Assembly (NCBI GenBank): GCA_031266495.1 | Contig: JAISAX010000578.1 | Span: 1 to 12,977 of the forward strand | DNA from: Opitutaceae bacterium | GTDB lineage: Bacteria; Verrucomicrobiota; Verrucomicrobiae; Opitutales; Opitutaceae | DNA length: 12,977 nucleotides | Direction of reading: 5' to 3' | In this document: one piece after another, positions 10,731 to 11,248 of the stretch | Layout: each line of letters starts with the position of its first letter | Position numbering within the stretch: the first letter of the stretch is position 1 | Translations under genes and position numbers: made by a program | Notes under the pieces: model-generated | Told to the model about the DNA's origin: nothing | Databases searched by the model: none | The model's input: only the letters and a program-made list of their open reading frames with translations

Positions 10731-11143
10731 ATGACTACGCCTGAAGTGCCTGTTGATGACCGCTGGCTGGTAAGGAGGCTATGAAAAACAACCGAAGCAA
10801 ATCTACCTGGTCTTGAAGAGTGATCCGGCGTTGCCGACACAGTCATTTACCTCGGTAAACTCCTGCGCCAGCTCCTTGGCTCACTCTTCAATCCCGGCGC
10901 ATCTTCTCTTCGTTTATCTTTCATAGCCTCCTTAGGTCCGGTCCGGGGCCTGACGACCTGCGTCAGGATTTGCGGGAGATATTGGCGGCAAAGTTGTTCG
11001 ATCCGGGCCGTCTCACTCTTGCCCAGGCGGCCGAGTTCGCCGGGCTACCTGTCTGGACCTTCATGGAGACGCTGTCGCGTCTGAAGGTCCCGGTCATCAA
11101 TCTCACCGACGAACAACTGGAAAACGAGTTCGCACGCCTCTGA
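10731..11143 (+). pseudogene. UPF0175-type antitoxin gene split by a 164-bp palindromic element
   Basis: The 5' part (10731-10770) reads MTTPEVPVDDRWL, then runs into a stop inside the insertion (...VRRL stop). The 3' part (from 10935) reads SGPGPDDLRQDLREILAAKL, FDPGRLTLAQAAEFAGL, PVWTFMETLSRLKVPVINLT, ending ENEFARL at the TGA 11141. Joining the two with exactly 10771-10934 removed restores one frame of 82 codons, the normal length of the small UPF0175 family, whose members carry the GRLSLGQAAELAG-type helix seen here. These proteins are usually antitoxins for a DUF3368/PIN-like ribonuclease toxin, and a stub of such a toxin follows four bases later. TTGACG (10696-10701) could be its old -35, but no good -10 was found. 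It cannot make a functional antitoxin as it stands; a short C-terminal fragment without a good start codon is all that remains open. Confidence 0.78.
10771..10934. mobile_element. 164-bp MITE-like imperfect palindrome with 16-bp perfect ends
   Basis: The ends are TAAGGAGGCTATGAAA (10771-10786) and its exact reverse complement (10919-10934). Similarity continues inward (for example CGAAG on both sides), then TTGAAGAGTGA at 10813-10823 pairs with TCACTCTTCAA at 10881-10891. The centre is a hairpin TTTACC-TC-GGTAAA (10846-10859) lying exactly at the symmetry axis of the whole element. Each end holds a full-length Shine-Dalgarno sequence (TAAGGAGG) two bases before an ATG; inward ORFs of 11 codons (plus, 10781) and 25 codons (minus, 10924-10847) result. 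It encodes no transposase, so if it moves it depends on one elsewhere. It interrupts the antitoxin gene. Confidence 0.75.
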
Positions 11144-11147
11144 GCCT

Positions 11148-11171
11148 TTGATTGTTTGCGACGCCAGCGCG
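11148..11171 (+). pseudogene. Remnant of DUF3368/PIN-type toxin N-terminus
   Basis: Starting at TTG 11148, four bases after the antitoxin stop, the frame reads LIVCDASA. This matches the beginning of DUF3368/PIN-type ribonuclease toxins (I-V-x-D-[AST]-S, where the Asp is the first active-site residue), which normally follow UPF0175 antitoxins. After about eight codons the similarity is lost (GIGRGWRETG...), so the rest of the toxin has been deleted. The remaining 75 bp to the AraC start show nothing recognisable. Confidence 0.5.
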
Positions 11172-11248
11172 GGCATTGGCCGCGGCTGGCGAGAAACAGG
11201 ACGGGGCTTGAAAACGCGCCATCGTTGTTGTCTTTATGGCTGCGTTTC

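Follow-up and report, generated by a model that had tools for sequence, protein, structure and literature searches.

The stretch of DNA analysed here (the window; 12,977 nt of contig JAISAX010000578.1 from an Opitutaceae bacterium) contains a long palindrome within a UPF0175-like gene. The locus raises the question of whether this palindrome is a mobile element and, if so, how it was inserted and what moved it. A sequence-only reading of the window had described it as a small non-autonomous mobile element, possibly undescribed. In our view the palindrome is almost certainly mobile and non-autonomous: it has multi-copy relatives, the orthologous gene is intact in Opitutaceae bacterium TAV1, and there are nested insertions in repeats of which uninterrupted copies are known.

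The element is an imperfect palindrome of 164 nt (positions 10771–10934 of the window). Its arms form perfect 16-bp terminal inverted repeats at 10771–10786 (TAAGGAGGCTATGAAA, plus strand) and 10919–10934 (minus strand), the reverse complement of the right repeat being the left one. The first mismatch falls at position 17, and the inverted arms extend to 27 nt at 89% identity. The symmetry axis lies between 10852 and 10853, within a central hairpin (TTTACC-TC-GGTAAA, 10846–10859, no strand assigned) with TTTACC at 10846–10851 and GGTAAA at 10854–10859. This hairpin is kept in nearly all aligned copies, its six stem pairs being formed in 97.3% of the cells of 25 aligned sequences. As single-stranded DNA the element folds with −33.5 kcal/mol, compared with −14.8 ± 2.6 kcal/mol for dinucleotide shuffles (z = −7.1; none of 200 shuffles equalled it). 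Ungapped self-complementarity extends to 92 of the 164 positions, compared with a mean of 43.4 (s.d. 8.7, maximum 78) for 164-mers whose first base is over 200 bases distant, and a gapped alignment of the element with its own reverse complement gives 70.6% over 170 columns. The arm comparison, fold and self-complementarity confirm the perfect ends and the centred hairpin of the sequence-only reading. None of the 75 open reading frames of at least 60 amino acids in the window overlaps 10771–10934, within which shorter frames exist. We note that 10771–10786 and the complement of 10919–10934 both read AAGGAGGCTATGAAA, which resembles a ribosome-binding site followed by a start codon; these ends are probably untranslated, because the copy G185e has no such ATG.

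The window encodes a protein that we take to be DUF502-like (NCBIfam returned no match for it) and that is 78% identical to its counterpart in Geminisphaera colitermitum TAV2. The host is therefore assigned to the Opitutaceae, near the TAV isolates, which are presumably of termite origin. TAV2 holds no convincing copy of the element, the best match in a search at E ≤ 10 having an E value of 0.125 and none being found at E ≤ 0.001.

The flanks of the palindrome are two pieces of a UPF0175-like gene, as had been proposed. The 5′ piece (10731–10769, plus strand) comprises codons 1–13 (MTTPEVPVDDRWL) and aligns with residues 1–13 of the TAV1 protein P0001. The 3′ piece (10937–11143, plus strand; 68 codons and a stop) matches Pfam PF03683 with an E value of 3.8e-17 and on its own scores 62.2 bits, above the gathering cut-off of 27.9. 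P0001, which has 83 residues, is the closest intact UPF0175 protein and is 91% identical over the 3′ piece. When read onward, the 5′ frame reaches a TGA at 10782 within the element; the 3′ frame has an in-frame TAA at 10856–10858, also within the element, and from there to 10937 no ATG, GTG or TTG codon. As both frames are stopped in the element and there is no start before 10937, the gene is broken. The database-predicted protein P0002, of 53 residues, begins at a later TTG of the 3′ piece.

P0001 reads MTTLDVPVDDRWL-VS-SGLGPDD, the VS lying between ...DRWL and SG..., and the window has 167 nt at the place of these two codons. As the TAV1 orthologue has 83 codons, the net insertion would be 161 bp and not 164 bp. 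Removal of 164 bp does keep the frame, as the sequence-only reading had stated, but the 82 codons that it leaves are one too few. The empty site, and with it the 161-bp figure, is thus deduced from a protein, P0001, which carries no insert, rather than from DNA. Among 115 relatives a search for the intact gene as DNA found only distant homologues (38–48% identity) in four, and viral contigs gave none. Directly 3′ of the UPF0175 stop, at 11149–11180 (plus strand), a short frame LIVCDASAGI can be read by eye; we take it to resemble the start of the PIN/DUF3368 partner that often accompanies UPF0175, and it may be a remnant of the toxin partner.

The sequence-only reading had called for a search for further copies in related genomes, the absence of which would have refuted it, and multi-copy relatives at unrelated sites, scattered over several genomes, were found. 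An initial search, run on 26 genomes at E ≤ 10, returned mostly chance matches of 15–25 nt and one true relative, L074 in genome G011. With the window element as query, blastn at E ≤ 0.001 gave matches in nine of 282 relatives of TAV2, the top one (contig C5 of G185) having 76% identity over positions 1–162; with a copy from G114 as query, 14 of 378 genomes were matched. These two surveys covered overlapping sets of genomes, with the best two candidates per genome scored. When up to 40 candidates were scored in each of the 14 matched genomes, 13 matches were counted in G114, six in G185 and five in G119. A covariance model matched in eight of 189 genomes, including G056. In this last genome, blastn with a G056 query found the element at a minimum of 40 places (the best 40 of 56 candidates were scored): 17 are full length (161–165 nt matched) and 23 partial, many of the latter at contig ends, so that a single copy may in some cases have been counted as two places. 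The best three are 98–99% identical to the query copy. The matches in the 14 genomes made up 37 rows, of which 33 were read; the four omitted are matches in G129, G272, G316 and G339 which, at 20–40 nt, look like chance, as does the 46-nt L110. Alignment A1 consists of the window element and 24 of the 33 copies, nine truncated or contig-end copies having been omitted.

The copies have two types of end. One reads AGGGACTCGG...CCGAATCCCT and the other AGGAGGCYA..., the latter being found in the window, G185e, G114g and G114h and, in a decayed form, in G159b. Pairwise comparisons against palindrome-preserving shuffles gave z values of 14.2 for the G114 type with the window, 6.2 for the G114 with the G056 type and 5.0 for the G056 type with the window. 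The G119 type scored 8.6 with the G114 type, and 2.5 with the G056 type and 1.4 with the window, neither of the last two being significant. On the basis of these sequence comparisons we take the window, G114 and G056 types to be one family, which the G119 type would join only through G114. A G119-type model gave five weak matches (E 0.011–0.63) at four places, each a known element, and the window was not among them. The exact pair of 16-bp ends occurred in none of the genome contigs searched, and plasmids and phages gave no blastn match to the element at E ≤ 1. The 16-bp end alone occurs in 30 stretches of viral contigs. The longest viral match among the matches listed, L062 (32 nt), was rejected as a relative, as it looks like a gene start and not like a palindrome.

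The junctions indicate how the element may have been inserted. In the window its 156-nt interior (10775–10930, plus strand), as delimited by palindrome, fold and alignment, lies between two pentamers, and the interior plus one pentamer gives the net insertion of 161 bp. The left pentamer, GTAAG (10770–10774, plus strand), is probably the original target: codon 14 would then be GTA, a valine as in the TAV1 orthologue. It stands in the same register as the left pentamers of the G056 copies. The right pentamer, CTTAG (10931–10935, plus strand), has the form of most G056 copies (CTWAG), and comparison of the junctions suggests that it was probably brought by the element. After rows with repeated first 80 bases (for example L320) had been dropped, the G056 junction table held 34 rows, 17 of them two-ended; L316 and L191 have a flank in common and possibly represent a single locus that was assembled twice. 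The two pentamers are equal in seven of the 17 two-ended copies and different in ten, even in copies that are 98.8% and 96.9% identical. The centre base is equal in 11 of the 17, which is near the chance expectation of about 9.5 that we calculate from base frequencies alone.

Several G056 copies are flanked by parts of another palindromic repeat, R2 (TGGCACTAAGTTAAGG...TTAACTTAGTGCCA), which is found in this genome at L231:1785–1959 and L189:980–1142 and in the flanks of L182 and L186. Both ends of R2 are repeated landing sites of the element. When uninterrupted, the left end reads GGCA-CTAAG-TTAAG (L231 and L189) and the right end TTAA-CTTAG-TGCC (L189) or TTAA-CTTCG-TGCC (L231). The filled right end in L186 reads TTAA-CTTAG[..]CTTAG-TGCC; the filled left end in L182 reads GGCA-CAAAG[..]CTAAG-TTAAG, and in this copy the target is matched by the pentamer on the right rather than by that on the left. 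The flanks of L187 rejoin a third repeat, read elsewhere as ATCAAAGTGCC (L270, L188 and L195), its left junction being CAAAG, the target, and its right junction CTAAG. Where the earlier pentamer can be deduced, in the window and L187, the target is consistent with the left pentamer, and CTTAG or CTAAG stands on the right. Our provisional reading of these junctions is that the element inserts at a CTNAG-like pentamer, carries the right pentamer as its own and does not regularly duplicate its target. A TA duplication does not fit, in agreement with the sequence-only reading. The element is itself a site of nested insertion in G056 (L270 and L315), where copies of it contain two further palindromic insertions. 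One is a hairpin (GGGCACC...GTGCCC) a little shorter than 60 nt, and the other a palindrome of about 280–290 nt, the ends of which (CTAAGAGGCTGTC...GACAGCCTCTAAG) resemble those of the window element.

The same junctions bear on two other routes. A conventional MITE could be mobilized by a DDE enzyme with duplication of a short target, either the 5-bp CTWAG or a 3-bp TWA as used by the TNA-type IS5 groups and PIF/Harbinger. L186, with CTTAG on both sides where the known target is CTTAG, fits plain duplication; the R2 targets in L189 have the form CTWAG, most full copies have terminal inverted repeats, and the 17 full-length G056 copies are uniform in length. Against this stand the pentamers that differ in ten of the 17 two-ended copies, near-identical ones included, and the unequal GTAAG and CTTAG of the window. 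A 5-bp CTWAG duplication, suggested by L186 and by the one-sided R2 junctions, is weakened, if not finally dismissed, because, with insertion possible from either strand, one-sided junctions are not decisive, and because the agreement of the centre base is near chance. We consider the DDE route unlikely, if a serious competitor. The near-chance agreement is what might be expected of the second route, in which a site-specific recombinase (tyrosine, serine or IS110-type) inserts a double-stranded circle by crossover at CTNAG, so that the centre bases may differ on each side; the joined ends of the element would read ...CT-N-AG..., much like the target. An unsystematic look beside the copies revealed no gene for such an enzyme, and to our knowledge site-specific recombinases do not need a palindrome of this length. 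This route seems to us improbable.

From copy to copy the two arms have changed together. The RNAalifold structure of A1 has 33 pairs, and 91.9% of the cells pair. Two-sided changes number 75 cells, compared with 23.7 ± 4.5 in shuffles (none of 500 as high) and 13–21 in slid controls, and the covariation score is 0.339 compared with 0.186 ± 0.010. Some of this excess is inherent, since the alignment tested is also the one from which the structure was taken; even so, the slid controls lie far lower. Almost all of the two-sided changes fall in the outermost 30 nt on either side. Since the interior is conserved and not symmetrical, the element has an orientation. That the palindrome and its paired changes extend past a terminal repeat of the customary 15–30 bp is a further point against a DDE transposase.

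Paired changes in the arms and a conserved, oriented, asymmetric interior would also be expected of a structured noncoding RNA or a regulatory palindrome that is conserved by descent and does not move. The genome pairs G011/G125 and G159/G185 have copies in common at orthologous-looking sites, as judged by eye from the flanks, which fits descent as well. However, the insertion lies in a gene that is intact in TAV1, empty sites contradict conservation by descent, and there are nested insertions and 40 places in G056. Rfam gave no match in the window and, in four loci, one unrelated snoRNA match below threshold and outside the element. We therefore regard an immobile RNA or regulatory palindrome as very improbable; a secondary role as RNA is possible for what we otherwise take to be a mobile element. 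Reading frames spanning the element are depleted at G056 copies (4/14, controls 46/65) and not at A1 copies (15/19, controls 62/95); the test chooses the most favourable of three net lengths and its outcome is biased upward, so we draw on the G056 result alone and give it little weight. G185a, G185c and G185f, read by eye, lie behind terminator-like hairpins or T-runs.

A gene-less element would have to be mobilized in trans. The sequence-only reading had hoped for a transposase gene flanked by these terminal repeats, and none was found: in G056 all 60 end matches lay at copies or pieces of copies, and in the 282 relatives window-type ends with up to two mismatches formed inverted pairs only at three known copies. 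An autonomous partner could be missed in this set, because many of the 282 genomes are drafts in many contigs. The result of these end searches also speaks against a DDE transposase. Truncated ends in G114 and G125 (L147, L149, L150, L151 and L133) were considered as parts of a long autonomous element and set aside, as nothing was recognisable among the nearby frames, those of at least 120 codons being judged by length and first residues.

Genes for Y1 (IS200-like) transposases were found in all six genomes tested, with 42 matches in G119 and 11 in G056. In G119 a relative of about 150 nt adjoins Y1 genes in nine of the 24 copies found (40 of 63 candidates were scored). It lies 232–239 bp upstream of the Y1 match in contigs C128, C266, C281, C191, C61 and C135 and downstream in C128, C281 and C441, C128 and C281 having it, inverted, on both sides of the gene. 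The homology between the G119 Y1 units L247, L248, L254 and L260 ends, where this is visible, at the outer edge of the palindrome. The alignment of the G119 relative used 14 of the 24 matches. Because this relative adjoins Y1 genes, a Y1 transposase is the best single candidate for the mover, with the qualifications that the nine cases are not independent and may be one copied composite, and so one event, that the G119 relative is remote from the window element, and that REP-like GTAG hairpins lie at those units too. None of the window, G114, G185 and G056 types was found beside the 30 Y1 loci tested, and the family model, when run on Y1 loci (31 sources, E ≤ 1), matched only the window and L216. 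At eight of the 19 Y1 loci examined, six in G056 and two in G185, there are inverted (A)AGGGGTC ends with unlike flanks, a layout similar to that of the element.

Several further features of the Y1 loci were observed. The AGGGGTC(A)-bounded, TIRtron-like units are L261, L262, L264, L265, L266 and L268 in G056 and L205 and L210 in G185, and at L265:3535–3600 such ends form a perfect 66-bp palindrome that stands alone. The 42 Y1_Tnp matches of G119 (L241–L260 and L271–L280) are contained in a genome of 3.9 Mb, and many belong to related units that share about 1.15 kb. REP-like GTAG hairpins (GTAGGGCCTGACCTTGTGTCAGGCC) adjoin some of these units, as read by eye.

In our view the most consistent interpretation is that the window holds a palindromic MITE/REP-like insertion, 161 bp net, at a CTNAG-like pentamer of the UPF0175 gene, with a Y1 enzyme as no more than the likeliest mover; taken as a whole we consider this probable. 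The element would have landed in GTAAG, within codons 14–15, breaking the gene. Mobilization by a Y1 (HUH, IS200-like) transposase of the REP- or TIR-associated kind (RAYT/TIRYT) has, we estimate, slightly less than an even chance. Such an enzyme would recognize the single strand in its folded form, cut it out as a circle and insert that circle next to a CTNAG-like sequence without target duplication; we infer this single-strand route, the circle and the enzyme itself from the structure, the junctions and the G119 loci.

The element belongs to a family of oriented palindromes of about 150–165 nt in Opitutaceae-type genomes. More tentatively, these may constitute a class of long (150–165-nt), oriented elements that fold as single strands, are moved by Y1 (HUH) enzymes, insert at CTNAG without duplication and have co-evolving arms across Opitutaceae-type genomes. 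If that is true, the class would bridge the gap that separates REP/RAYT hairpins from classical MITEs. Searches of the literature, mostly outside subscription journals, found no description of the palindromes, and they are apparently an undescribed family of scattered MITE/REP-like repeats. The interest of the family lies in its being gene-less and recently active-looking, in a group whose small repeats have been little described. The window adds a clear case of gene inactivation, and the nested insertions make the junction readable. Should the Y1 link be borne out, the mobilization of REP-like hairpins could be tested directly in genomes of the G056 and G119 types.

Comparison with known systems places the element near several of them. 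Like the REP/REPIN hairpin repeats with their RAYTs, it is a hairpin repeat, here with a putative association with Y1 transposases; unlike GTAG REPs and REPINs it is about 160 nt rather than 20–40 nt long, has no GTAG tag at an end and has an asymmetric interior. According to the sections of PMC3733652 drawn on here, GTAG REPs are abundant in Opitutus terrae. As described in the same sections, Rickettsia palindromic elements are also palindromic insertions, many of them inside genes, but they are inserted in frame and their genes are likely still to function, whereas the UPF0175 gene is broken by stop codons (PMC3733652).

The TIRtrons and TIRYT repeats of Di Nocera et al. (2013; PMC3733652), some with the motif GGGGWSAS in their TIRs, are a closer parallel as far as the portions of that paper used here describe them. 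Like them, the G119 relative is found both as an inverted pair around a Y1 gene and by itself; AAGGG-type ends and an apparent absence of clean duplication are further points of agreement. The Y1 loci in G056 and G185 with inverted, GGGGTCA-like (A)AGGGGTC ends fit these TIRtrons. In contrast, the ends of the element (GGGACTCGG, GGACCGTAAC and GAGGCTATG) do not contain GGGGWSAS as given in those portions (PMC3733652), and no Y1 gene turned up that has the ends of the window, G114, G185 or G056 type. Bacterial MITEs of 70–300 bp, such as RUP, NEMIS, ERIC and Nezha in the account consulted (PMC3733652), resemble the element in size (156 nt plus pentamers), in terminal inverted repeats (perfect over 16 bp), in the absence of coding capacity, in copies dispersed through related genomes and in a strong hairpin. 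The element differs from them in that no parental IS was found, in being palindromic over most of its length and in apparently lacking a clean target duplication. In kind it is ordinary; its uncommon features are the junctions and a palindrome that spans the length of the element.
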